Below the pieces are notes generated by a model. The model was not told where the DNA came from. It saw nothing but the letters and a program-made list of their open reading frames with translations, and made no database searches. A program made the translations under genes and the position numbers. This document shows, piece by piece, positions 21,779 through 41,922 of a stretch of DNA of 64,000 bases (position 1 is its first letter; every line of letters begins with the position of its first letter). Source of the stretch: Betaproteobacteria bacterium. Its GTDB lineage: Bacteria; Pseudomonadota; Gammaproteobacteria; Burkholderiales; Rhodocyclaceae. The stretch is taken from NCBI GenBank assembly GCA_020621865.1, contig JAHRYW010000005.1, forward strand, positions 107,663 through 171,662. Reading direction: 5' to 3'.

Positions 21779-21849
21779 GTGGCATTTAGCTGCAGGCGAC
21801 GATGGGGGAATGGGAGTTCCAACTTCTGGTATTCATGGGAGAAACCGAG

Positions 21850-24132
21850 ATGAGAAAATTTGCAGTGAAAACCACCGCGCTGCTGTTGGCCGCAGGCTTT
21901 GCAGCCACGGCGTGGTCCGCCGAATCGCTGCAGGACGTGATGAAGCGTCGCGGCCTTAGCCAGCAGGACCTGCTGGCTGCGTCCAAGACCTACGTCCCGA
22001 CCGGCAAGCGCGACGAATTCGTCGTCTTCAGCTCTGGCGGCCAGTCCGGCCAGATCATCGTGTATGGCATTCCGTCCATGCGCATCCTCAAGTACATCGG
22101 CGTGTTCACGCCGGAACCCTGGCAGGGCTACGGCTTCGATGAAAACTCCAAGGCTGTGCTGAACCAGGGCAGCATCGATGGCAAGACCATCACCTGGGGT
22201 GACACGCACCACCCGGCCATCTCGGAAACCCAGGGCAAGTACGACGGCCAGTTCCTGTTCATCAACGACAAGGCCAATCCGCGCCTCGCCGTGATCGACC
22301 TGCGCGACTTCGAAACCAAGCAGATCGTCGTCAACCCGATCTACAAGTCCGAACACGGCGGTGCCTTTGTCACGCCGAACACCGACTACGTGATCGAAGC
22401 CGCCCAGTACGCCGCACCGCTCGAGAACAAGAAGTTCTACCCGCTCGAAGAGTTCAACGAGAAGTATCGCGGTGGCGTCACCTACTGGAAGTTCGACCGC
22501 AAGGAAGGCCGCATCAACCCGAAGGAATCCTTCTCCCTCGAACTGCCGCCGTACTCGCAGGACTTGTCCGACGCCGGCAAGGGTCCGTCCGACGGCTGGT
22601 CCTTCACCAACTCCTTCTGTTCCGAGCGTTACGTTGGCGGCATCGAAAAGGGCCGTCCGCCGTATGAAGCCGGTTGTTCCGCCAAGGACACCGACTACAT
22701 GCACGTAATCAACTGGAAGAAGGCCGCCGAACTGGTCGCCGCCGGCAAGGCCAAGACCATCAACGGTCACAAGGTCCTGCCGATGGACGTTTCGATCAAG
22801 GAAGGCATCCTCTTCCTGGTACCGGAACCGAAGTCCCCGCACGGCGTTGACGTGACCCCGGACGGCAAGAGCATCATCGTCTCCGGCAAGCTCGACACCC
22901 ACGTTTCCGTCTATTCCTTCGAGAAGATCCAGGCCGCCATCAAGGCCGGCAAGTTCGAATCCAAGGATCCGTACGGCATCCCGGTCATCGGCATGAAGGA
23001 CGCCCTGGACAAGCAGGTTCAACTCGGCCTCGGCCCCCTGCACACCCAGTACGACTCCAAGTCCTGCCTGGCCTACACCTCGCTCTACGTGGATAGCCAG
23101 GTCGCCAAGTGGAACTACTGCGAAGGCAAGGTCGTCGACAAGATCTCGGTGCACTACAACATCGGTCACCTGATGACCATGGAAGGCGATTCCATGGATC
23201 CGAAGGGCCGCTACCTGGTTGCGCTGAACAAGCTGGCCATCGACCGCTTCGTGCCGGTCGGCCCGCTGCATCCGCAGAACCACCAGCTGATCGACATCTC
23301 GAACGACAAGATGCAACTGTTGTACGACATGCCGCTGCCGCTGGGCGAGCCGCACTACGCCGTCGCCATCGACGCCACCAAGCTGAAGCCGGGCGTGCGT
23401 TACAAGGTCGGTACCGATTCCCGCACCGACAAGCAGCATCCGGGCATGGTCCGTGCAGGCGAAGAGCGTATCGAGAAGAAGGGTAACAAGATCACCGTCT
23501 ATGGCACCCTGATCCGCTCGCACATCACGCCGGAAACCATCGAAGCCGACGTCGGCGACGAAGTGACCGTCCATCTGACCAACCTCGAACGTGCCCAGGA
23601 CGAAACCCACGGCTTCACCGTGTCGACCTACAACGTTCACGCCTCCGTCGAACCGGGCAAGACCGTCACGGTCAAGTTCAAGGCCGACAAGGAAGGTGTC
23701 TACCCGTACTACTGCACGGAATTCTGCTCCGCGCTGCACCTCGAAATGCAAGGCTACCTGCTCGTCAAGCCGAAGGGCTGGAAGCCGACCAAGACCGAGA
23801 TTGCCAAGCAGAACTACACCGAGGCTGACTACAAGGCAACGATCAAGAAGGTTGCCGACACCCAGGTCGTCATCGATTCCGTGGTCGGTTACATCACCAG
23901 CGTGAATTACAAGGACTTCCCGGATGTCGTGGCCATGGTCGAAGACGCAACCGACCAGCTTGGCAAGATGAAGGATGCCAAGGCCAAGCACGAAGCCGCT
24001 GCCGCCAAGAAGGACTGGGAACAGGCCAATCTGTGGGCCGAGCAAGTCTGGCAATACCAGGTCAAGGCAGCCGACCTCGGTCTGCGCGCCAAGACCTACC
24101 TCGAGCAGAACGGTGCCAAGAAGGTCAAGTAA
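21850..24132 (+). CDS. nosZ: Nitrous oxide reductase, clade II (Sec-dependent)
   Basis: MRKFAVKTTALLLAAGFAATAWSA (Sec-type, no twin Arg); DTHHPAISETQGKYDG (CuZ); VYPYYCTEFCSALHLEMQGYLLV (CuA). Confidence 0.97.
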   Translation: MRKFAVKTTALLLAAGFAATAWSAESLQDVMKRRGLSQQDLLAASKTYVPTGKRDEFVVFSSGGQSGQIIVYGIPSMRILKYIGVFTPEPWQGYGFDENSKAVLNQGSIDGKTITWGDTHHPAISETQGKYDGQFLFINDKANPRLAVIDLRDFETKQIVVNPIYKSEHGGAFVTPNTDYVIEAAQYAAPLENKKFYPLEEFNEKYRGGVTYWKFDRKEGRINPKESFSLELPPYSQDLSDAGKGPSDGWSFTNSFCSERYVGGIEKGRPPYEAGCSAKDTDYMHVINWKKAAELVAAGKAKTINGHKVLPMDVSIKEGILFLVPEPKSPHGVDVTPDGKSIIVSGKLDTHVSVYSFEKIQAAIKAGKFESKDPYGIPVIGMKDALDKQVQLGLGPLHTQYDSKSCLAYTSLYVDSQVAKWNYCEGKVVDKISVHYNIGHLMTMEGDSMDPKGRYLVALNKLAIDRFVPVGPLHPQNHQLIDISNDKMQLLYDMPLPLGEPHYAVAIDATKLKPGVRYKVGTDSRTDKQHPGMVRAGEERIEKKGNKITVYGTLIRSHITPETIEADVGDEVTVHLTNLERAQDETHGFTVSTYNVHASVEPGKTVTVKFKADKEGVYPYYCTEFCSALHLEMQGYLLVKPKGWKPTKTEIAKQNYTEADYKATIKKVADTQVVIDSVVGYITSVNYKDFPDVVAMVEDATDQLGKMKDAKAKHEAAAAKKDWEQANLWAEQVWQYQVKAADLGLRAKTYLEQNGAKKVK

Positions 24133-24172
24133 TACGCAGCCGAAAAGTCTTGATCTGACTTAAGGCAATTAT

Positions 24173-24199
24173 CGAGGGGCAGAGCGATTCTGCCCCTCG
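24173..24199 (+). terminator. Hairpin after nosZ
   Basis: CGAGGGGCAGA-gcgat-TCTGCCCCTCG followed by TTTC. Confidence 0.6.
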
Positions 24200-24222
24200 T
24201 TTCATTTCAGGAGGGAAAAACC

Positions 24223-24531
24223 ATGAAATTTGTAATGTCTCTGATCGCTGCCGCCCTGGTCGCCAGCCCCGTCATCGCCGCTCCGGACGGCGCCAAGCTC
24301 TACGCCGAGAAGACCTGCAACGCCTGCCACGGCCCCAAGGGTGACAAGCCCCTGATGCCGAACTACCCGAAAATCGCCGGCCAGAATGCTGCCTACACCG
24401 AACAGCAGATGAAGGACATCAAGAGCGGCGCCCGCAACAACGGCCAGACGGCTGCCATGAAGGGCGTCATGCATCTGGTCAACGACGAGGAAATCAAGGC
24501 ACTTTCCGAATACCTCGCCAAGCTTAAATAA
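24223..24531 (+). CDS. Monoheme c-type cytochrome of nos cluster
   Basis: Signal peptide, CNACH, MPNYPKIAGQNAAYTEQQMKDIKSG. Confidence 0.9.
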   Translation: MKFVMSLIAAALVASPVIAAPDGAKLYAEKTCNACHGPKGDKPLMPNYPKIAGQNAAYTEQQMKDIKSGARNNGQTAAMKGVMHLVNDEEIKALSEYLAKLK

Positions 24532-24538
24532 CTTGAAA

Positions 24539-24558
24539 AAGCCCGGCCTTCCGGGCTT
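24539..24558 (+). terminator. GC-rich hairpin downstream of cytochrome
   Basis: AAGCCCGG-cctt-CCGGGCTT; no strong poly-T tract. Confidence 0.45.
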
Positions 24559-24642
24559 ATGACGCACATCAAGGAATGCTGATATAGGTGCATCGATAAT
24601 GCATTCAGCGTTCGGAACCATCTGACACAAAGGACACCAAAC

Positions 24643-25410
24643 ATGAAAGCATCATTTCTGCTGATTGGCCTGCTCTCCGCCGGCATCGCTTTCGCCGCCC
24701 CCCCGGCCCCGAAAACCGAGGGCATCGAAGGCAAGGATTACAAGTGGAATGCCCAGTCCGGCGAAAAGGTCGAGGCACTGACCAAGAAGGGTGACAAGAA
24801 GCGCGGCGAAGAAGGTTATGAAACCTGCGGCGCCTGCCACCTGCCCTCCGGTGCCGGCCGTCCCGACGGCACCTTCCCGCAGCTCGCCGGCCAGCACACC
24901 ACCGTGCTGATCAAGCAGATGGCCGACATCCGTGCCGGCCTGCGCGACAACCCGACGATGTACCCGTTTGCCGCCACGCTGACCGATGCTCAGGAACTGG
25001 CCGACGTTGCCGCCTACATCGAAAGCCTGTGCATTCCGCCTGACCACGGCCATTACGACTCCAAGCCGGGCGACGCCGGCAAGGACTGGAAGGTTCCGGC
25101 TGATACCGACAAGCGCATCGCCGAAGGCAAGGCGCTGTACGAAAAGGAATGCCTGGAGTGCCACGGCAAGAACGGCGAAGGCAACAAGGAAAAGTTCTAT
25201 CCGGTGATCGCCGGCCAGCACTACAAGTACCTGCTGCGCCAGATGACCGAAATTCGTAACGGCCATCGCCGCAACGCCAATCCGGACATGGTCAAGATCA
25301 TCAAGAAATACACCGATGACCAGCTGATTTCCATTTCCGCCTACCAGGCCAGCCTGCAGATGCCGGGCAACATGTGCAAGCCGAAGGCTGGCGCAGGCAA
25401 GAAGAAGTAA
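24643..25410 (+). CDS. Diheme c-type cytochrome of nos cluster
   Basis: Signal peptide, CGACH and CLECH. Confidence 0.92.
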   Translation: MKASFLLIGLLSAGIAFAAPPAPKTEGIEGKDYKWNAQSGEKVEALTKKGDKKRGEEGYETCGACHLPSGAGRPDGTFPQLAGQHTTVLIKQMADIRAGLRDNPTMYPFAATLTDAQELADVAAYIESLCIPPDHGHYDSKPGDAGKDWKVPADTDKRIAEGKALYEKECLECHGKNGEGNKEKFYPVIAGQHYKYLLRQMTEIRNGHRRNANPDMVKIIKKYTDDQLISISAYQASLQMPGNMCKPKAGAGKKK

Positions 25411-25432
25411 GTAGTTTGCAGTAAGCTTGATG

Positions 25433-25456
25433 GGTTGCCCGCCTGAGCGGGCAACC
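25433..25456 (+). terminator. GC-rich hairpin between cytochrome and nosB
   Basis: GGTTGCCCGC-ctga-GCGGGCAACC. Confidence 0.5.
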
Positions 25457-25501
25457 TTCACCCGACGCCGCGGGTGGCGTCAGACCACAGAGAACAGCAA
25501 T

Positions 25502-26476
25502 ATGGAAAAGCAAAACAAAATCATCGGCGGCCTTACCTTGATCTCATTGATCTGCCTGATCGCCGCCTACTTTGCCCCGATCTGGTGGGTTTCGCTGACC
25601 GCCCCGAATTATCCGGCCGATGCCTTCCCCGATGGCATCCGCATCCATTTCCATTTCGACGGTGTCTATAACGGCTGCAAGGTAGCCGGCAAGGGCACGC
25701 GGATGGCCAACGAGATCATCCAAAAGGATCTCGCCCACGACGACGAGCGCTACAACCCCATCCTCGACGCCCAGAAGAACGTCGACAAGGGTGCCGAAGG
25801 CCTCGATTGCGTCCATGAAATGAACACCATCAACCACTACGTCGGCATGTTCCCGATCGCCACCGGTGCGCCGGTCGAAAAGCCGCTGGCCAAATTCTTC
25901 TTCGGCTTCTTCGCGGTGATGATGGTGGCTTTTGCCATCGCCCGCAAAAAAGCGCGAATTTTGACGCTGACCGTAGGCTTTGCTGCCGTCGCCGCCTGGA
26001 TGATCGTCGACCAGTTCGTCCTCGGCCATCTGGCCAGCCATGTCGAGCACTACATGCAGGAAGCCGGCACCTTCTTCAAGGAACCGGACAAGATCAAGGT
26101 CTGGGGCGACAACGTCCTCAGCATCTCGAAGATCGTCATCTTCGGCCTGATCGCCGTGATGGGCGTGGTCATCGCCGGCACCGCCCTGGTTCGCCCCTTC
26201 CAGCTGCTGCTGGCCCTGGTCCCGGCCCTGCTGCCCGTCTTCTTCGTGATCACCTACGCCGGCTGGCTGTGGTTCTTCGGCCACAACCTGCATCCGTGGG
26301 GCGCCTTCACCGTCAAACCCTTCATGCCCACGGTCTTCGGCGAAGGCAAGGTCGCCCAGTTCTCGACCTTCTCCTATCCGTACTGGGGCTACGGCCTGCT
26401 GCTGATCATCTTCGTCTGCATGATGCTGGCCCTGCTGATCCGTCGCAAGCAGCTGCGCGAAGGCGGCGCCGAGTAA
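25502..26476 (+). CDS. nosB: NosB-like membrane protein of clade II nos clusters
   Basis: Polytopic; position between nosZ and nosD; MEKQNKIIGGLTLISLICLIAAYFAPIWWVSLTAPNYPADAFPDGIRIHFHFDGVYNGC. Confidence 0.8.
   Translation: MEKQNKIIGGLTLISLICLIAAYFAPIWWVSLTAPNYPADAFPDGIRIHFHFDGVYNGCKVAGKGTRMANEIIQKDLAHDDERYNPILDAQKNVDKGAEGLDCVHEMNTINHYVGMFPIATGAPVEKPLAKFFFGFFAVMMVAFAIARKKARILTLTVGFAAVAAWMIVDQFVLGHLASHVEHYMQEAGTFFKEPDKIKVWGDNVLSISKIVIFGLIAVMGVVIAGTALVRPFQLLLALVPALLPVFFVITYAGWLWFFGHNLHPWGAFTVKPFMPTVFGEGKVAQFSTFSYPYWGYGLLLIIFVCMMLALLIRRKQLREGGAE
25944..25981 (+). repeat. Weak variant of the dispersed element (inside nosB)
   Basis: GCAAAAAAGCGCGAATTTTGACGCT-GACCGTAGGCTTT. Confidence 0.45.
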
Positions 26477-26480
26477 GCCC

Positions 26481-27836
26481 GTGATCCGCCTGCGCCAACT
26501 CGCCAGCTTCGGCCTGGCCACGTCGCTCCTGCTGGTCATCAGCCAGGGGATCTCCGAAACCCAATCGGAAGTCCCCGCCGGCATGGGCGCCCGCGCCGAT
26601 GTCGACCGCCCGAAGCCGACCTTCATGCTGCACGAGCGCGACAAGCGGGTGCACGGCCTGAAGCCCTTCCAGGAACTGGTCGACCAGGCAGAGCCCGGCA
26701 GCGTGCTGCGCCCCCCCGCCGGCAACTATGCCGGGCCGGTCGTCATCACCAAACCGCTGACCATTGAAGGCGACGGCAAGGTGACCATCGACGCCGGCGA
26801 CCGCGGGACGGTGATGGTGCTTAACGCCAGCGACACGACCATCCGCGGCATCCACCTGACCGGCTCCGGCGATTCGCACGACACCGACGATTCCTGCCTC
26901 GACGTCCGCGGCAACAATAACGTCATCGAGAATGTGATCGCCGACAACTGCCTGTTCGGCATCGACCTCAAGCAATCCAACCACAGCACCCTGCGCCACA
27001 ACCGCATCTCCTCAAAGGATCGCGAACTGGGCGTGCGCGGCGATGGCCTGCGCCTGTGGTACAGCAGCGACAACCTGATCGAAGGCAACGAGGTCATCGA
27101 CTCGCGCGACATGGTGGCCTGGTATTCGCACCGCAACATCTACCGCAACAACCTCGGCAAGCGCAGCCGTTACTCGATCCATTTCATGTTCGCCAACGAC
27201 AACATCGTCGAAGGCAACCGCTTCTACGACAATGCCGTCGGCGTCTATTTCATGTACACCGAGGGCGGTGTCCTGCGCAATAACGTCATCTCGCACGCCA
27301 CAGGTGCCACCGGCATGGGCATCGGCTTCAAGGAGTCGTCAGGCACGCTGGTTGAAAACAATGAAATCATTTACTGCGGCATCGGCGTCGGTTCCGACCT
27401 TTCGCCCTTCCAGCCCGATTCGACCATCGAGTTCAAGGGCAACCGCTTTGCCTACAACGGTATCGGTGTCCTGTTCAATTCGGAAACCGGCGGCAACAAC
27501 CTGCGCGACAACGTTTTCGAAGGCAACCTGACCCAGGTCAGCTACGGTAGTCGCAGCGGCGCCGACAATGCCGCCAAGAACTCCTGGGCGGCCAACTACT
27601 GGGACGACTACCAGGGCTTCGATCGCAACGGCGACGGCATCGGCGACCAGAAGCATGAACTGTATTCCTACGCCGACCAGATCTGGATCGAGCTGCCGAT
27701 GGCCCGCTTCTTCCGCAGTTCGCCCGTCCTCGAACTGCTCGATTTCCTCGAACGACTCGCCCCCTTCTCGACGCCCGACCTGATCCTGCGCGATGAGCAA
27801 CCGCGTTTCGTCAAACCGGAAAGGAAAGCTGCATGA
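26481..27836 (+). CDS. nosD: NosD, periplasmic copper-processing beta-helix protein
   Basis: Parallel beta-helix repeats, SVLRPPAGNYAGPVVITKPLTIEGDGKVTIDAGDRGTV. Confidence 0.95.
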   Translation: MIRLRQLASFGLATSLLLVISQGISETQSEVPAGMGARADVDRPKPTFMLHERDKRVHGLKPFQELVDQAEPGSVLRPPAGNYAGPVVITKPLTIEGDGKVTIDAGDRGTVMVLNASDTTIRGIHLTGSGDSHDTDDSCLDVRGNNNVIENVIADNCLFGIDLKQSNHSTLRHNRISSKDRELGVRGDGLRLWYSSDNLIEGNEVIDSRDMVAWYSHRNIYRNNLGKRSRYSIHFMFANDNIVEGNRFYDNAVGVYFMYTEGGVLRNNVISHATGATGMGIGFKESSGTLVENNEIIYCGIGVGSDLSPFQPDSTIEFKGNRFAYNGIGVLFNSETGGNNLRDNVFEGNLTQVSYGSRSGADNAAKNSWAANYWDDYQGFDRNGDGIGDQKHELYSYADQIWIELPMARFFRSSPVLELLDFLERLAPFSTPDLILRDEQPRFVKPERKAA

Positions 27837-28705
27837 GCGACCAGGAAGACGACCGCCAAGCGCCGGCCGGCACCACCTCAAGCGCCGCGCCTGCCGTATC
27901 GATCGCCAAGCGACAGACCAACCGTCGCCGCGTACTGCGCACCATCCTGCTGACCGGCGGCGTGCTCGGTGCCGCGATGTCCGGTTTCCTGCCGCTGGTT
28001 TACGCCCAGAAGAAACGCCTGCGCCCGCCCGGCGCGCTCGACGAAAAGGACTTCCTGTCGAGCTGCATCAAGTGCGGCCAGTGCGTGCAAGTCTGCCCGG
28101 TTTCGGCCATCAAGCTGGCCGACCTGGTCGACGGCATGGGCGTCGGCGCACCGTACATCGATGCCCGTGAGCAAGCCTGCGATTTCTCCTGCGATGCCGT
28201 GCAATGCATCCTGGCCTGCCCGACCGGTTCGCTGACTTACCACAAGCCCGATTTTCTGCCCGTGCGCAACGGCGCCGCGCTGGCCGCCAAGCCCATCCTG
28301 CTGGCCAAAGAAAAGGACGCCGAACCGACGCTGAACCTCAACGAGCGCATCGGTGTCGCCCGCCTGGTCCGCCCGGAGGCCTGCCTGGCCGTCCAGGGCA
28401 AGGGCTTCAAGGGGCAGACGCGCGGCCCTGGTTTCAAGGGCAAGATGCGCTACATGGCCGTCGATCGCTGGAAGCCGATTCCGATCGCCGAGCACCCCTA
28501 CGACGTCGCCGAATGCGACCTGTGCGCCAGCGAATGCCCGATCAAGGGGGCCATCTCGATCGAAACCGTCTTCGCCCCGGATGGCAGCCAGCGCAAGTCG
28601 CCGGTCGTCCATGAACCCTGCGTCGGGTGCGGCGTCTGCGAAATGGTCTGTCCGGTTGAACCGACGGCCATCGCCATCGAAGCCCGGGAGGTGTGGAAAG
28701 TATGA
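27833..28705 (+). CDS. nosG: NosG (NapG-like) 4Fe-4S ferredoxin
   Basis: Multiple CxxCxxCxxxCP motifs: SSCIKCGQCVQVCPVSAI; ECDLCASECPIKGAI; GCGVCEMVCP. Confidence 0.92.
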   Translation: MSDQEDDRQAPAGTTSSAAPAVSIAKRQTNRRRVLRTILLTGGVLGAAMSGFLPLVYAQKKRLRPPGALDEKDFLSSCIKCGQCVQVCPVSAIKLADLVDGMGVGAPYIDAREQACDFSCDAVQCILACPTGSLTYHKPDFLPVRNGAALAAKPILLAKEKDAEPTLNLNERIGVARLVRPEACLAVQGKGFKGQTRGPGFKGKMRYMAVDRWKPIPIAEHPYDVAECDLCASECPIKGAISIETVFAPDGSQRKSPVVHEPCVGCGVCEMVCPVEPTAIAIEAREVWKV

Positions 28706-29688
28706 GCGAACGCCTGAAACGCCGCTTCGTAGACCAGATCAAGGTGCTGTTCGGCTGGGATCCGGCCAAGCCAAGCAAGCCGGAGGACATCAGTCCCGAA
28801 GCGCAGAAGATTCATTTCTACAAGAAGGGCAACCGCGATCTGATCGAGCAGAAGCTGCATGCACGCGCCCATGCCGAACACGGCAACAAGTGGCGTAACC
28901 GCCGCTGGGCAACGCTGATTTTCGCCAACCTGCTGTTTGCCGTTTCCTTCGCCCTCGACATCCAGATTCTCGAAGGCGCGCTGACCGCCTCGCGCTTCGT
29001 CGGCTTCCACCTGATCGACCTGAATTCAGCGCTGCAGGTCATGCTGGCCCACAAGCACATCATCAACAACCTGCTGATCGGCACCGGCACCGTACTCGTG
29101 CTGTGGGTACTGCTGGGCGGGCGCACCTTCTGCTCCTGGGTCTGCCCCTATCACCTGCTGGCCGAATGGGCGGAAAAGCTGCACCTGTTCCTGGCCAAGA
29201 AGAAACTGGTCACCGACCAGACCATGGACCGTCGCCTGCGCACCGTCTTCTGGATCGTCTTCGCGCTGCTCGCCCTGGCTACCGGCTACACCGTCTTCGA
29301 GGCCATCTCGCCGACCGGCATTCTCTCCCGTGCGCTGATCTACGGCCCGGGACTGGCCGTGCTCTGGGTGCTGGCCCTGCTCTTCTTCGAAGTCTTCTTC
29401 TCGCGCCGCGCCTGGTGCCGCTACGCCTGCCCGATCGGCCTGACCTACGGCGTCGTCGGCATCGTTTCGCCGCTGCGCATCAAGTACAAGCTCGACGGCT
29501 GCTTCCATGAAGGCGACTGCCGCAAGGTCTGCCTGGTGCCGCACGTGCTCGACACGGTGATCAAGGGCCGCGCCGTCGAAACCGAAGTCGCAATCGGCCC
29601 CGACTGCACACGCTGCGGCCTGTGCGTCGACACCTGCCCGACCGGCTCGCTGACTTTCGAGGTCAAGGGCCTGTCGAAACTGATGTGA
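28702..29688 (+). CDS. nosH: NosH (NapH-like) membrane quinol/ferredoxin protein
   Basis: TM segments, FCSWVCPYHLLAEWAEKL, CRYACPIG, CTRCGLCVDTCP. Confidence 0.92.
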   Translation: MSERLKRRFVDQIKVLFGWDPAKPSKPEDISPEAQKIHFYKKGNRDLIEQKLHARAHAEHGNKWRNRRWATLIFANLLFAVSFALDIQILEGALTASRFVGFHLIDLNSALQVMLAHKHIINNLLIGTGTVLVLWVLLGGRTFCSWVCPYHLLAEWAEKLHLFLAKKKLVTDQTMDRRLRTVFWIVFALLALATGYTVFEAISPTGILSRALIYGPGLAVLWVLALLFFEVFFSRRAWCRYACPIGLTYGVVGIVSPLRIKYKLDGCFHEGDCRKVCLVPHVLDTVIKGRAVETEVAIGPDCTRCGLCVDTCPTGSLTFEVKGLSKLM

Positions 29689-30037: not shown

Positions 30038-31150
30038 ATGCTAAATATTGCCCTTGCGCTCGCTTTTGCATTTTCATCACTGCTATCACCAGGAGGGCGA
30101 ATTCTTCGCTTGGCAATTGAAGAGCCCGTTCTACATAGCCTCCCTCCCTACCAAGGGCATTTGCTTTTGGCATTCGCGAACTATTGGGTTCCAGCCGTTA
30201 TAGCGTATTTAGCGCTGCGCTTATTACGTGCTAATTCTTGGCTCTGGCCACGTCCAGCCATTCACGTTTTACTAGGGCTGGCAAACGCTCTAATTGTGTT
30301 TTATTTTGCTGCAAGGGTGTTTGCGTCCACGGTACAGGGTGGTGGCGCGAGTTTCGCAGTAATGTCATTTGCTCCGCTTGTGATTTTTCCAGCATGGGCA
30401 ATGCTGGCCGCGGGGCTTATTTGGTTGGCATTTCGTTCAATCCGCAATCGACAAGAAACCCAACCTATCGGTTCTAGGGCGCTTGGCATTGGCGAGGGAA
30501 TTGCGATAGCAATGGCGCTAGGCATCCCTGCTGTAGCAGTTGCATCAACTTTGTTTCTTACAGAAAACGCTCCCTTTAGACTCGCAAAAGAAGCGGATAA
30601 GTTGTTCAATGAAAAATGCAAGAGTGCCGGTGAAGTCATTATCAATCACCCTCAAAATGTCCAGAGCATCTACCTCGACCAAGACGGAGGGCAGTACTTT
30701 GACAACATAGTCAACGGTGTCTATGGCAGCTATGGAAGCAGCATTCTTGGTGAACCGCTGGTGAATAGCGGGTTGCTGTTGTACTTCGAAAAGAAAAATG
30801 ATCGGCAACAAATTGATGGAGGTATCGCCAAGTACCATAAGCATGGTCTCAAGGACTGGAAAGGCGAGCCAGTAGAGGAACTCACAAGCGAATACGGCGT
30901 GTTCCAAAAATCTCTAGTTAGCGACAGCGATGAGAAGAGACTGGGAGTTCGCGGGATGGAGATTACGATAAAGAATATGAAGACTGAACAGACTGTCGCA
31001 ACTCTCACGTTCTTTACGAGTAGCCGCCATAGAAAAATTTGCGGTCAGTCTAGCGATGGGCGTTTTGGTGTGAGTGATTTCATTAGAAAGTCACTGAACC
31101 TGACGAGGCAGTTTCCCGATGCGTTTCCAGCGGCTACGCAGCGTCCCTGA
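30038..31150 (+). CDS. Hypothetical membrane protein, lower-GC ORF
   Basis: 370 aa ORF with N-terminal TM segments; visibly lower GC than neighbours. Confidence 0.6.
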   Translation: MLNIALALAFAFSSLLSPGGRILRLAIEEPVLHSLPPYQGHLLLAFANYWVPAVIAYLALRLLRANSWLWPRPAIHVLLGLANALIVFYFAARVFASTVQGGGASFAVMSFAPLVIFPAWAMLAAGLIWLAFRSIRNRQETQPIGSRALGIGEGIAIAMALGIPAVAVASTLFLTENAPFRLAKEADKLFNEKCKSAGEVIINHPQNVQSIYLDQDGGQYFDNIVNGVYGSYGSSILGEPLVNSGLLLYFEKKNDRQQIDGGIAKYHKHGLKDWKGEPVEELTSEYGVFQKSLVSDSDEKRLGVRGMEITIKNMKTEQTVATLTFFTSSRHRKICGQSSDGRFGVSDFIRKSLNLTRQFPDAFPAATQRP

Positions 31151-31289: not shown

Positions 31290-32195
31290 TCAGCGCTCCC
31301 CGCCCCGCCATGCGGCCAGGGCCGCCGTTGCATCTTCCAGCGTGACCAGCCGTTTGATCCCGGGCACGTCAGCCAGCCGCCGGATACCACCGCCGCCCAC
31401 CCACAGCGCCACTTCATCCGGCAACGCCGCCCGTAGCTGTTGCAGCAGCATCGGTATCTGGCGCTGGGGAAAAGCCACCGAAAACGAGAGCGCGACGATA
31501 TCGGCACGATGGGCCGTCGCCGCACGGCTGATCTCGAGCAGCGGCATCTGCGTCCCCAGCGGGATGCACTCCGCCCCCTCCAGCGCGAACAGCGCTTCGA
31601 CCATCAACAGCCCCAGCACATGTTGCTCGTCCGGTACGCTGGTCAGCAGGATGCGCGGGTCGCGCGGGCCGGTTGGCAAGGTGGCGACCGCCTGGCGGAG
31701 CAAACGCTTGGTCAGTTCGGTGAACAGGTGTTCCTCGAAGACCTCGAAAGTGCCGCGCTCCCAGTATTCACCGACCTGACTGGTCAACGGCGCCACAGTG
31801 TCCTGGACAAAACCCTGCAGTCCCTGGCGGGCCAGACGCTGTTGCATGGCCTGCTGGTAAGCGGCGACGTCGTGCCGCTTGATCAGCGACAACAGTTCGT
31901 CGAGTTCGCTGGCGGCAACCGGATCGGCTGACCTGATCGGCTCCTTCCGGCGCGGCGCCAGCACGGCCAGTTCGGCGACCGGCGTCGCAATCAGCTTGCC
32001 AGGGCGATGCCCGGCATCCATCAGCCGCTTGATCAGGCGTAGCCGCTCGACCTGCTCGGGCGGATAGCAGCGCTCGCCGTTGGCGTCGCGCTCCGGTACG
32101 GGGAATCCATAGCGGCGTTCCCACATGCGCAGGACGTCCTTGGACAGGCCGGTATCGCGCTCGACAGCGGCGATATTGAAATGGGTGGCATTCAT
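31290..32195 (-). CDS. MerR-family regulator with cobalamin-binding domain (CarH/LitR-like)
   Basis: MNATHFNIAAVERDTGLSKDVLRMWERRYGFPVPERDANGERCYPPEQVERLRLIKRLMDAGHRPGKL (MerR wHTH); Wx9EH motif W-ERGTFEVFE-EH; EQHVLG ([D/E]xHxxG). Confidence 0.92.
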   Translation of the reverse strand: MNATHFNIAAVERDTGLSKDVLRMWERRYGFPVPERDANGERCYPPEQVERLRLIKRLMDAGHRPGKLIATPVAELAVLAPRRKEPIRSADPVAASELDELLSLIKRHDVAAYQQAMQQRLARQGLQGFVQDTVAPLTSQVGEYWERGTFEVFEEHLFTELTKRLLRQAVATLPTGPRDPRILLTSVPDEQHVLGLLMVEALFALEGAECIPLGTQMPLLEISRAATAHRADIVALSFSVAFPQRQIPMLLQQLRAALPDEVALWVGGGGIRRLADVPGIKRLVTLEDATAALAAWRGGER

Positions 32196-32204
32196 ATTTG
32201 TCCT

Positions 32205-32237
32205 GTACAAACGTTAGACAAACCATTGACAAACGAT
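32205..32237 (+). promoter_or_regulatory. Three tandem 11-bp direct repeats (CarH-like operator)
   Basis: GTACAAACGTT / AGACAAACCAT / TGACAAACGAT, head to tail; overlaps the -35 element. Confidence 0.75.
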
Positions 32238-32254
32238 TCTTTGATGTCTATCTT
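32226..32254 (+). promoter_or_regulatory. Sigma70-type promoter for the light/stress operon
   Basis: TTGACA-N17-TATCTT. Confidence 0.75.
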
Positions 32255-32303
32255 ACGAACAAGAACTCGATTTGTCCAGGACAAAACAAACAAGGAATAT
32301 TCC

Positions 32304-32864
32304 ATGACCAAGCTGCCCAAAAAAATTCTTGCGCTGGCCGCCCTGGTTTCAGCCTGTCTCGCTGGCCCGGCCTACGCCGCCCCCTGCCCGCCCTTGCTGA
32401 ACCAAGCGCTGACCAGTTTGCAGGACGGCAAGCCAATGCCGCTCTGCCAATACGCCGGCAAGGTCATCCTGGTCGTCAATACCGCCAGCTACTGCGGCTT
32501 CACCTCGCAATACGACGGCCTGGAAAAGCTCTACGCCCGGCTCAAGGACAAGGGGCTGGTCGTGCTCGGTTTTCCGTCCAACGACTTTGGCGAACAGGAG
32601 CCGGGCAGCGAAAAGGAAATCGCCGAGTTCTGCCGCCTGACCTATGGCGTCGAGTTCCCGATGGCTGGCAAGACCGTGGTCAAGGGCAAGAACGCGCATC
32701 CCTTCTACCTCAGGCTGGCCGAGATCACCGACAGCCGCCCGAAGTGGAATTTCCACAAGTATCTGATTAACCGCGATGCCACGCAGGTCGTCGCCTTCGG
32801 CAGCTTCACCAAGCCGGACGATGCCGACCTGCTGAAGACCATCGACCGCTTCCTGGCCCAGTAA
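32304..32864 (+). CDS. Glutathione peroxidase-like, exported
   Basis: Signal peptide; VNTASYCGFTSQYDGLEKLY, GFPSNDFGEQEPGS. Confidence 0.92.
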   Translation: MTKLPKKILALAALVSACLAGPAYAAPCPPLLNQALTSLQDGKPMPLCQYAGKVILVVNTASYCGFTSQYDGLEKLYARLKDKGLVVLGFPSNDFGEQEPGSEKEIAEFCRLTYGVEFPMAGKTVVKGKNAHPFYLRLAEITDSRPKWNFHKYLINRDATQVVAFGSFTKPDDADLLKTIDRFLAQ

Positions 32865-32874
32865 GGAGACTGCC

Positions 32875-34203
32875 ATGACGACCAGAAAACGCATCGCCGT
32901 CGTCGGCGCCGGCATTTCCGGACTGGCCAGCGCCTGGCTGCTGAGCCGCCACCACGACGTCACGCTGTTCGAAGCCGGCAGCTACCTCGGTGGCCACACC
33001 AACACCGTCGACGTGACGCTCGAAGGCCGTACGCATCCGGTCGATACCGGCTTTCTCGTCTTCAACGAAAAAACCTATCCCAACCTGATCGCGCTGTTTG
33101 AGCACCTCGGCGTGGACAGCGTCGAGACCGAAATGTCCTTTGCCGTCAGCCTGGAGAATCCGCGCCTCGAATGGGCCGGCAGCAACCTGGCGACAATTTT
33201 CGGCCAGAAGCGCAACCTCGTTCGCCGCGAATTCTGGCGCATGCTGGCCGACATCCTGCGCTTCAACCGCGACAGCAACGCCTGGCTGCTCGCTCACCCC
33301 GACAACCGGCGCAGCCTGCGCGAATTCCTGTCCGAAGGTCGCTACTCGGCCGCCTTCGCCGACTGGTACCTGCTGCCGATGGCCGCCGCCATCTGGTCCT
33401 GCCCAACCGGCCAGATGCTCGACATGCCGCTCGCCACCTTCATCCGCTTTTGCCAGAACCACGGCCTGCTGCAGGTCTTCGACCGCCCGATGTGGCGCAC
33501 CGTGTATGGCGGCGGGCGCGAATACGTCCGCCAACTGGCCGCCGAAATCAAGGCCAACGGCTCGCACTGTCGCCTCGCCTGTCCGGTCAGCGCCGTCACC
33601 CGCGACGGCGGCGGCCTGCGCGTCACCCATGGCCGCGGCAGCGAAAGCTTCGATCAGGTCGTCATGGCCTGCCACAGCGACCAGTCGCTGGCCATCCTCG
33701 GCTTCACGGCCAGCGATGCCCAGCGCGAGGTGCTGTCGGCCATCCGCTACCAGCCCAATCGCGCCGTGCTGCACACCGACCCGGCCCTGCTGCCGCGCGA
33801 CCGCAAGCTGTGGTCGGCCTGGAACTACTTTGCCGCTGCCGGCCAGCCCGGCGAGCAGCCGGTCGGCGTCTCCTACCTGATCAACAAGCTGCAGCCGCTG
33901 CCGTTCCAGACGCCGGTCGTCGTCACCCTCAACCCGGCCCGCGAACCGGATCCGGCCAAGGTGCTGGCCGAATTCGACTACGCCCACCCGATCTTCGACG
34001 GCCCGGCCATCGCCGCGCAGCAGCGTCTGCGCGACCCGGCCAGCGGCATCCAGGGCGAGGGCGGCATCTGGCTGGCCGGCGCCTGGGGCAGCTACGGATT
34101 CCACGAAGACGGTCTCAAATCGGCGCTGCGCGTCGCCAACGGCCTGGGCATCCAGGCGCCGTGGCAAGCCGGCAGCGGCAGTTCGCAGCAAGCCCAGGCC
34201 TGA
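32875..34203 (+). CDS. FAD-dependent amine oxidase-like oxidoreductase
   Basis: RIAVVGAGISGLASAWLLSRHHDVTLFEAGSYLGGHTNTVDV. Confidence 0.92.
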   Translation: MTTRKRIAVVGAGISGLASAWLLSRHHDVTLFEAGSYLGGHTNTVDVTLEGRTHPVDTGFLVFNEKTYPNLIALFEHLGVDSVETEMSFAVSLENPRLEWAGSNLATIFGQKRNLVRREFWRMLADILRFNRDSNAWLLAHPDNRRSLREFLSEGRYSAAFADWYLLPMAAAIWSCPTGQMLDMPLATFIRFCQNHGLLQVFDRPMWRTVYGGGREYVRQLAAEIKANGSHCRLACPVSAVTRDGGGLRVTHGRGSESFDQVVMACHSDQSLAILGFTASDAQREVLSAIRYQPNRAVLHTDPALLPRDRKLWSAWNYFAAAGQPGEQPVGVSYLINKLQPLPFQTPVVVTLNPAREPDPAKVLAEFDYAHPIFDGPAIAAQQRLRDPASGIQGEGGIWLAGAWGSYGFHEDGLKSALRVANGLGIQAPWQAGSGSSQQAQA

Positions 34204-39748: not shown

Positions 39749-40600
39749 ATGATCCAGTTCACCCAAGTCGCCAAGACCTTTCGCAAAGCCCGCGTGCTCG
39801 ATGGCATCAGCCTGAACATCGGCCTCGGCGAACGCGTCGCCCTGATCGGCTCCAACGGTGCCGGCAAGACCACCCTGATCCGCTGCCTGCTCGGCGAATA
39901 CACCTACGACGGCAGTGTCGCCATCAACGGCCTCGACCCGCGCAGCAATCGCACAGCCGTGCTCGGCAGCATCGGCTTCGTGCCGCAGCTGCCGCCGCCG
40001 CTGAAGATGCCGGTCGGCCAGCTGATCGACTTCTCGGCCTCGCTGTGCGGCACCGACCCGCAGCGCATCCACGCCATCGCCAAGCGCCTCGGCCTCAACC
40101 TCGACGACATCCTGTCCCGCCAGTTCGTCCGCCTCTCCGGCGGCATGAAGCAGAAGCTGCTGATCGCCATCGCCCTCGGCCGCGACGCCAAGGTGCTGGT
40201 CATGGACGAGCCGGCCGCCAACCTCGACCCGGAAGCGCGCAAGATTTTCTTCGACCTGCTGGCCGAACGCCTCGACGACGCGACGATGATCATCTCCAGC
40301 CACCGCCTCGACGAAGTCTCGGCGCTGGTCAATCGCGTCATCGAAATGGACATGGGCAAGGTCGTCCTCGACGACAAGGTGGCCGACGCGGTCACGCTGA
40401 CCGCCCGTCTGGCCTGCCGCGTCGTGCTCAGCCGCTTCGAGCCGGCCTTCGCCAAGGCGCTCGACGGCTGGAAGCTGCAGAGCAGCGACGACAACCGCGT
40501 GTGGACCGGCGAGATCGCCGGGCCGGACCGCCTGCGCTTCCTCGGCATCGTTTCCCGTTACACGGCGCTGGTCAGCGACCTGTCGCTGTCCGAGATCTGA
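39749..40600 (+). CDS. nosF: NosF ABC transporter ATPase
   Basis: Walker A IGSNGAGKTT, signature LSGGMKQKL, Walker B VLVMDEP. Confidence 0.93.
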   Translation: MIQFTQVAKTFRKARVLDGISLNIGLGERVALIGSNGAGKTTLIRCLLGEYTYDGSVAINGLDPRSNRTAVLGSIGFVPQLPPPLKMPVGQLIDFSASLCGTDPQRIHAIAKRLGLNLDDILSRQFVRLSGGMKQKLLIAIALGRDAKVLVMDEPAANLDPEARKIFFDLLAERLDDATMIISSHRLDEVSALVNRVIEMDMGKVVLDDKVADAVTLTARLACRVVLSRFEPAFAKALDGWKLQSSDDNRVWTGEIAGPDRLRFLGIVSRYTALVSDLSLSEI

Positions 40601-40602
40601 CC

Positions 40603-41094
40603 ATGTGCGACAGCCATCGCCGCCAGTTCATCGGCCGGCTCGGCCTCGGCGGCCTGCTGCTGACCCCGCTTGCTGCCGCGCTTTCCGCTTGCGGCAGCAA
40701 GGGCGGCTGGCCGGACGGCATGGCCGAGATCAAGTGGGACCGCGATACCTGCGCCCGCTGCAGCATGGTCATCTCCGACCGCCGCTTCGCCGGCCAGATT
40801 CGCGGCGGCCCGGACGGCACCGTCTTCAAGTTCGACGACCCCGGCTGCCTCGCCTTCTGGCTCAAGGAAAAGGCCGACAAATACCCGTGGCTGGCCGATG
40901 CCGGCACGAAAATGTGGGTTGCCGATTTCAACAGCAAGAGCCGCGACGAGATGGTCTGGCTCGACCCGCGCCGCGCCTACTACGTGACGCGCACCTCGCC
41001 GATGGGCTATAACTTCGCCGCCGTCGCCGCGCCGCTGGCCGGCGCCATCGATTTCACCGACATGCGCCAGCACGCGCTGGCCAAGGGTAAGTAA
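40603..41094 (+). CDS. nosL: NosL copper chaperone lipoprotein
   Basis: Lipobox LSACGS; DTCARCSMVISDRRFAGQI. Confidence 0.93.
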   Translation: MCDSHRRQFIGRLGLGGLLLTPLAAALSACGSKGGWPDGMAEIKWDRDTCARCSMVISDRRFAGQIRGGPDGTVFKFDDPGCLAFWLKEKADKYPWLADAGTKMWVADFNSKSRDEMVWLDPRRAYYVTRTSPMGYNFAAVAAPLAGAIDFTDMRQHALAKGK

Positions 41095-41922
41095 ATGAAA
41101 CAACTGTGGCTGACCGCCAAACTGGACATCGTCGAATCGCTGCGTGCCCGCTGGTTCCAGATCTACACGCTGGTCTTCGGCGGCATCGTCGCCCTGCTCT
41201 TCCTCTTTGGCCTGACCGAATCGCGCGTCCTCGGCTTCATCGGCCTGTCGCGCCTGCTCGTCACCTACATCCAGCTGACCATGGCCATCCTGCCGATCTT
41301 CGTGCTGATCACCACGGTCCGCTCGGTAGCCGGCGACCGCGAGGCCGGCGTCTTCGAATACCTGCTCTCGCTGCCGGTGTCGCTGTCCGCCTGGTTCTGG
41401 GGCAAGATCGTCGGCCGCTACATCGTCGTCTTCGCGCCGGTCTTCCTGGCCATGCTCGGCGCCGTGATCTGGGCAACGATCAGCGGCATCGAAGTGCCGT
41501 GGGACATGTTCGGCTACTACACCGCGCTGCTCGCCGTCATGGCCATGTGTTTCCTCGGCATCGGCATGCTGATCTCCTCGGTGGCCCGCACCACCGACAT
41601 GGCCCAGGGCGCCGCCTTCATGGTCTGGCTGTTCCTGCTCCTCTTCCTCGACCTGATCCTGCTCGGCATCATGATCCAGGGCAAGGTCGCCCCGGAAATC
41701 GCCGTCACCCTGGCCCTGGTCAACCCGCTGCAGGTCTTCCGCACCGCCGCGCTGGCCTTGTTCGACCCGCAACTGATCGTCCTCGGCCCTTCGGCCTACG
41801 TCATCCTCGACCTGTTCGGCACGGCCGGCTACAAGGTCTTCGCGCTGGCCTACCCGGCGGCGCTCGGCCTGGTCAGCGCAACGGTCGGCTACTTCCTGTT
41901 CCGCCGCGGTGACCTGCCGTGA
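41095..41922 (+). CDS. nosY: NosY ABC transporter permease
   Basis: Six TM segments, position after nosF-nosL; VRSVAGDREAGVFEYLLSLPVS. Confidence 0.93.
   Translation: MKQLWLTAKLDIVESLRARWFQIYTLVFGGIVALLFLFGLTESRVLGFIGLSRLLVTYIQLTMAILPIFVLITTVRSVAGDREAGVFEYLLSLPVSLSAWFWGKIVGRYIVVFAPVFLAMLGAVIWATISGIEVPWDMFGYYTALLAVMAMCFLGIGMLISSVARTTDMAQGAAFMVWLFLLLFLDLILLGIMIQGKVAPEIAVTLALVNPLQVFRTAALALFDPQLIVLGPSAYVILDLFGTAGYKVFALAYPAALGLVSATVGYFLFRRGDLP

Follow-up and report, generated by a model that had tools for sequence, protein, structure and literature searches.

A predicted CarH-type operator-promoter with direct repeats and flanking palindromes in a putative betaproteobacterial light-response locus

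Described CarH-type systems and the locus

The operator repeat of CarH has been defined experimentally as 5'-nnnnTnnACAn-3'; CarH of Thermus thermophilus uses three such repeats at 11-bp spacing, one of which contains the -35 element of the target promoter (PMC9304148). The Thermus protein (PDB 5C8D/5C8E) comprises a MerR DNA-binding domain, a four-helix bundle with a Wx9EH motif and a Rossmann B12 domain, and its targets are carotenoid genes. The myxobacterial CarH/CarA operators are likewise built from 11-bp repeats, with degenerate copies overlapping the -35 element, and the inverted repeats found in some species were judged unnecessary (PMC9304148). In Pseudomonas, the class II LitR proteins PplR1 and PmlR2 recognize T(G/A)TACA-N12-TGTA(C/T)A at a pair of operator sites, the first on the -35 element and the second between the transcription start and the start codon, and the light-regulated genes include those for furan fatty acids and photolyase; in P. 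putida, LitR proteins mediate the light induction of UfaM and photolyase (PMC9758184). A further point of comparison is promoter geometry. The commonest bacterial bidirectional promoters have a symmetric -10 element with reciprocal -11A/-7T and transcription starts 18 bp apart, and in the acrR/acrAB type the gene of an autorepressor is divergent from its target operon, with AcrR repressing both directions (PMC12825309; PMC10268837).

We analyzed a 64,000-nucleotide stretch of DNA (the window) in which a CarH-like gene lies divergent to an operon with predicted roles in lipid and peroxide protection. It is probable that positions 32197-32285 constitute the operator-promoter of a CarH-type, B12-based light-sensing repressor, which would act on a bidirectional promoter and repress it in both directions in the dark. 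We regard it as a variation on the CarH operator already described, and not as an operator of a new kind. As in Thermus, three TnnACA repeats are spaced by 11 bp and one contains a -35 box, but here palindromes are added, which are lacking in the characterized Thermus and Bacillus operators, and the promoter appears to be bidirectional around a shared -10 element. In contrast to the inverted repeats of myxobacteria, judged dispensable, those of this locus are the most conserved element. The locus resembles the Pseudomonas systems in its gene content and in having two operator sites similarly placed, but the spacing between its half-sites is 11 bp, the protein has both B12 domains, and the class II LitR operator is absent from the window's promoter sequence. 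Like acrR/acrAB, it pairs a shared -10 element and predicted starts 18 bp apart with a divergent candidate autorepressor; it differs in that each of the two -35 boxes lies within a half-site for a predicted light-sensing repressor. By its description, the Vibrio PhrR regulon (a RegPrecise annotation mentioned in PMC12971978) is also similar, with a MerR-family regulator and genes of the light-response cluster type. The PhrR of PMC5343134 was rejected as a related regulator, being an unrelated TyrR-family protein. The features of the locus are as follows.

31290-32195, minus strand: gene for a CarH-like, B12-binding, MerR-family predicted repressor, divergent to the operon (Pfam, motifs, PDB match)
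32197-32211, no strand: palindrome 1, TTTGTCCTGTACAAA, imperfect, overlapping the carH Shine-Dalgarno sequence (AGGA) and repeat 1
32204-32209, plus strand: repeat 1 core, TGTACA (TnnACA)
32215-32220, plus strand: repeat 2 core, TAGACA (TnnACA), a clade-specific middle repeat
32226-32231, plus strand: repeat 3 core, TTGACA, also the -35 box of the operon promoter (promoter scan, orthologous promoters)
32243, minus strand: predicted carH transcription start, placed from the -10 position
32249-32255, no strand: shared -10 element TATCTTA, read as TATCTT on the plus and TAAGAT on the minus strand (promoter scan, conservation)
32261, plus strand: predicted operon transcription start, placed 7 bp after the -10 element
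32271-32285, no strand: palindrome 2, TTTGTCCAGGACAAA, perfect, at about +11 to +25 of the predicted operon transcript and conserved in most orthologous promoters
32273-32278, minus strand: predicted carH -35 box TGGACA, an opposite-facing TnnACA half-site inside palindrome 2 (promoter scan, conservation)
32304-32864, plus strand: gpx, glutathione peroxidase with a leader peptide (Pfam GSHPx)
32875-34203, plus strand: FAD amine-oxidase-type desaturase, UfaD-like (Pfam Amino_oxidase; UfaD role, PMC7380195)
34211-34975, plus strand: DUF1365 protein, UfaO-like (Pfam DUF1365; UfaO is a DUF1365 protein, PMC7380195)
34972-36156, plus strand: cyclopropane-fatty-acid-synthase-type methyltransferase, Cfa/UfaM-like (Pfam CMAS; NCBIfam Cfa models below cut-off)

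A first-pass annotation of the sequence had singled out the product of the gene at 31290-32195 for a binding test on a CarH-like operator, and the domains, motifs and predicted fold of this protein all mark it as CarH-like. It carries the Pfam domains MerR_1, B12-binding_2 and B12-binding, and its best PDB relative by sequence is Thermus CarH (E = 2e-29; ~31% identity). The top Foldseek matches of the predicted model (pLDDT 86.7) were all Thermus CarH (E = 1.4e-18), with a B12-domain rmsd of ~3 Å. The recognition helix RxWERRY is present as RMWERRY at residue 23, every residue being kept in nearly all 90 family orthologs, and the Wx9EH motif of the four-helix bundle (W145...E155-H156) is kept in 90/90. 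The B12 motif (E190-x-H192-xx-G195, 41 residues, S237-F-S239, 27 residues, G267-G268) fits the class I pattern D/ExHx2G/P-x41-SxT/V-x22-27-GG, save that the third residue of SxT/V is Ser and not Thr or Val; ExHxxG, S-F/C-S and GG were found in 90/90 orthologs. The score against the best NCBIfam model, TransRegCarH, was 124.6 bits and missed the CarH equivalog cut-off of 400. Judged by its sequence and predicted model, the protein is of the CarH-like, B12-binding class I kind. In an alignment with Thermus CarH, the Arg and Asp that pair at its subunit interface are matched by Gln191 and Gln216. Trp145 also lacks the His that follows it in the Thermus protein; among the orthologs, this position is mostly Glu, Met or Leu. 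Its oligomeric state and photochemistry may therefore differ from those of Thermus CarH.

Direct repeats and flanking palindromes

Three 11-mers (32205-32215, 32216-32226 and 32227-32237) had been annotated as a CarH-like operator overlapping the promoter of the operon. All three read exactly so in the sequence, the promoter is present as TTGACA (32226-32231), 17 bp and TATCTT (32249-32254), and the core of the third repeat is its -35 box. Aligned to the published CarH repeat, positions 32204-32231 read TGTACA-N5-TAGACA-N5-TTGACA, three exact copies of TnnACA every 11 bp; taken as at least three tandem nnnnTnnACAn with one on a promoter element, a CarH direct-repeat operator is present here. 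Three TnnACA at this spacing are found at one place in the window, 100 dinucleotide shuffles gave no match, and the tighter pattern of three ACAAAC likewise has a single match in the window. Across the 2.9-Mb genome, the array ending in TTGACA had a single match, and its control had 0.

For phylogenetic footprinting, promoters were sampled as 29 orthologous promoters, then 90 family promoters and then 80 named loci; after duplicate removal, the set comprised 160 non-redundant carH promoters. Among orthologous carH promoters, a pair of 15-bp palindromes (TTTGTCCWGGACAAA) usually flanks the promoter and is better conserved than the repeat array. The pair was present in 127/160 non-redundant promoters (shared ancestry uncorrected) and in 0/3200 shuffled regions. 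Its spacing was 62-64 bp in 63 promoters, 72-77 bp in another 63 and 86 bp in one, and none of the 127 paired promoters had a spacing of 65-71 bp. The two spacing classes are thus 11 bp apart, equal to one repeat and about one helical turn. Palindrome 1, imperfect in the window, is perfect (TTTGTCCTGGACAAA) in the window's two nearest relatives (L141 and L142). A reading of palindrome 1 as merely the carH ribosome-binding site was rejected because the palindrome persists in promoters that place it 10-40 bp farther from the aligned start of carH. The strict pair was found in just 1 of 369 genomes sampled across the class from other families (the window's genome excluded), so the paired arrangement belongs mainly to the family of the window and to some Burkholderiales. 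A search of the literature for the exact palindrome as text gave no relevant match. In L024, L028, L029, L030, L116, L118, L119 and other loci, a third palindrome of the same kind is often present ~200-250 bp from the carH start, far past the promoter and either ahead of the first operon gene or close to it.

Loss of the 11-bp register in orthologous promoters had been proposed as grounds for refuting the operator, but the register is kept. Counted from palindrome 1 in the 54 promoters of the window's type (74-type), TnnACA lies at offsets 0, 11 and 22 in 48, 37 and 49, respectively, with both n positions varying at repeat 1. In the 49 promoters of the 63-type, TnnACA lies at offsets 0 and 11 in 41 and 29, and TTGAC itself at +11 in 47. 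An opposite-strand half-site follows at offset 69 (54/54, 74-type) or 58 (45/49, 63-type), and no other offset in a TnnACA scan of that stretch came near the counts of the register positions. Repeat 2 is missing from 63-type promoters, which are shorter by 11 bp, exactly one repeat, and about half of the related carH promoters have two repeats only. Where present, the middle repeat lies outside the promoter boxes and the palindromes, and its T and ACA are retained in variants that differ at the n positions (TAGACA, TGAACA, TGTACA, TCGACA). This makes a good case that it is read as a CarH repeat. The first-pass reading of a CarH operator thus stands as regards the match to the consensus and the conserved register, and its core claim is well supported for the window's clade; it overlooked the palindromes and the bidirectional carH promoter, and the array is only part of a larger operator.

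A narrower version of the CarH operator is that the protein binds the palindromes as a classical MerR-type dimer, with the 11-bp repeats of this clade serving as secondary contacts. The palindromes are common to both promoter types and to an unlinked regulon site (below), and the two Gln residues at the Arg-Asp interface positions suggest a different oligomer, both of which would suit a dimer. However, promoter spacing changes by 11-bp steps, and the middle repeat is retained as TnnACA outside any palindrome or promoter box, which makes this version rather unlikely.

Operon, regulon and bidirectional promoter

The gene set of the window's operon matches that of the furan-fatty-acid pathway (PMC7380195). 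To the left of this light module lies a Sec-type (clade II) nosZ cluster (nosZ, nosD and ferredoxin-type maturation proteins; 21802-29688), and to its right an ABC ATPase, a NosL-like ORF and an ABC permease (39749-41922); the module therefore seems to split a nos cluster. In the relatives L141 and L142, nosD-G-H adjoins carH as well. Between the nos genes and carH, the window has a 370-aa ORF (30038-31150) with no Pfam match.

Across genomes, the exact palindrome was found in 98/109 with carH (11/109 lacked it) and in 13/141 others, an odds ratio of 88 with ancestry uncorrected; the reversed-pattern control gave 1.98. In the window's genome and two genomes of the same genus, a lipocalin-photolyase operon also has the palindrome upstream. 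This is the one other clearly relevant site in the window's genome and consists of a single palindrome with no array; a second 11-mer array, for which a search near phr or folE, for example, had been proposed, has 0 matches in the genome. The other palindrome matches in this genome (L031, L034 and L038) were treated as background, since no reference light genes are nearby and two lie inside genes. In Accumulibacter-like genomes (L052, L054), the palindrome is upstream of a separate gpx gene. In L156, L162, L194, L195, L207, L212 and L217, carH is followed immediately, in the same orientation, by a photolyase-like gene (cryB), which likely represents a carH-photolyase operon in those relatives.

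Might the palindromes instead belong to some other regulator, such as a redox or stress repressor, while CarH uses the direct repeats only? Characterized CarH operators are direct repeats, with the inverted repeats of Myxococcus judged dispensable (PMC9304148). In the window's clade, palindrome 1 also loses its symmetry where the middle repeat is present, its symmetric GG being found in 3/37 promoters with that repeat and 58/89 without (Fisher p ~1e-9, ancestry uncorrected). Yet the palindrome tracks the carH gene across the 250 genomes compared and extends to the carH promoters of Ramlibacter, Noviherbaspirillum and Rubrivivax. Moreover, each palindrome holds a TnnACA half-site consistently oriented towards the promoter, and the centre base of the left sites is T in 92/103, that of the right sites A in 103/103. 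We consider a separate regulator improbable.

The promoter between the palindromes appears to serve carH as well as the operon. In the window, TGGACA-N17-TAAGAT is read on the minus strand at 32278-32250 (score 9 of 12), such that the TTGACA of the plus strand and the TGGACA of the minus strand are both 17 bp from the shared -10 element. Among related promoters, TTGAC-N16-18-TAnnnT occurred in 120/126 (ancestry uncorrected); the minus-strand -35 was TRGACA in 114/120 and lay exactly 17 bp from TAnnnT in 110/120. The sequence of the TAnnnTA element shows the reciprocal -11A/-7T, and the two starts, both predicted, are 18 bp apart. Given this geometry, with the minus-strand -35 inside palindrome 2, both -35 boxes are, as read from sequence, TnnACA half-sites pointing at the shared -10. 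In 63-bp-class promoters (e.g., L095, L029, L028), bases beside the shared -10 match as complements across a dyad more often than column composition would give (pair 8/22: 40 observed, 20 expected), e.g., GAACCTATCTTAGGTTC; the window's promoter lacks this dyad.

Bidirectional function is deduced from sequence only, and with a minus-strand score of 9 of 12, the minus-strand boxes could be a by-product of palindrome 2 and TATCTTA, with the carH promoter elsewhere and this one unidirectional. We give this little credence: the A after the -10 hexamer, which rightward transcription does not need, is kept in 109/120 promoters although the three bases in the middle of the element vary, and the 17-bp spacing on the minus strand is equally well maintained. 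Lastly, repeat 3 is a -35 box and the ribosome-binding site of carH shares sequence with the left half of palindrome 1, but chance or mere promoter by-product is a negligible explanation of the repeats, given their absence from the shuffles and the conservation in register of non-promoter repeats in the clade.

Proposed regulation and its significance

From the arrangement of the sites and its conservation, the protein family and the pairing of carH with the palindrome across genomes, we infer the following cycle for this predicted CarH operator. A sigma-70 promoter with the shared -10 TATCTTA would drive gpx-ufaD-ufaO-cfa to the right (-35 TTGACA) and carH to the left (-35 TGGACA), the rightward -35 being the last of the three 11-bp direct repeats and the leftward -35 one half of a palindrome of 15 bp. 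With AdoCbl bound in the dark, CarH would sit across repeats and palindromes alike and keep RNA polymerase off either -35 box, leaving the operon repressed and carH autorepressed. Illumination would break the AdoCbl bond and free the DNA of CarH, and both transcripts would then be made until newly made CarH restored repression. More tentatively, and as a possibility that we hold with some doubt, one repressor may read two half-site geometries, head-to-tail in the 11-bp repeats and head-to-head in the 15-bp palindrome, and the two may substitute for each other in evolution by steps of one helical turn around a shared-(-10) promoter whose -35 boxes are both half-sites.

The locus provides a precise, testable predicted operator for B12-based light control in betaproteobacteria not known for photobiology, among them Azonexus, Dechloromonas, Accumulibacter, Zoogloea and other genera, wastewater bacteria included. 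It also supplies a candidate autorepressor on a bidirectional promoter, a promoter class described as hardly studied (PMC12825309). The natural series of operators, with two repeats, three repeats and palindromes, offers material for asking how a single MerR-type protein can recognize direct as well as inverted repeats. For these bacteria, the predicted control would tie light to membrane lipids of the furan-fatty-acid type, to peroxide and to photolyase functions.
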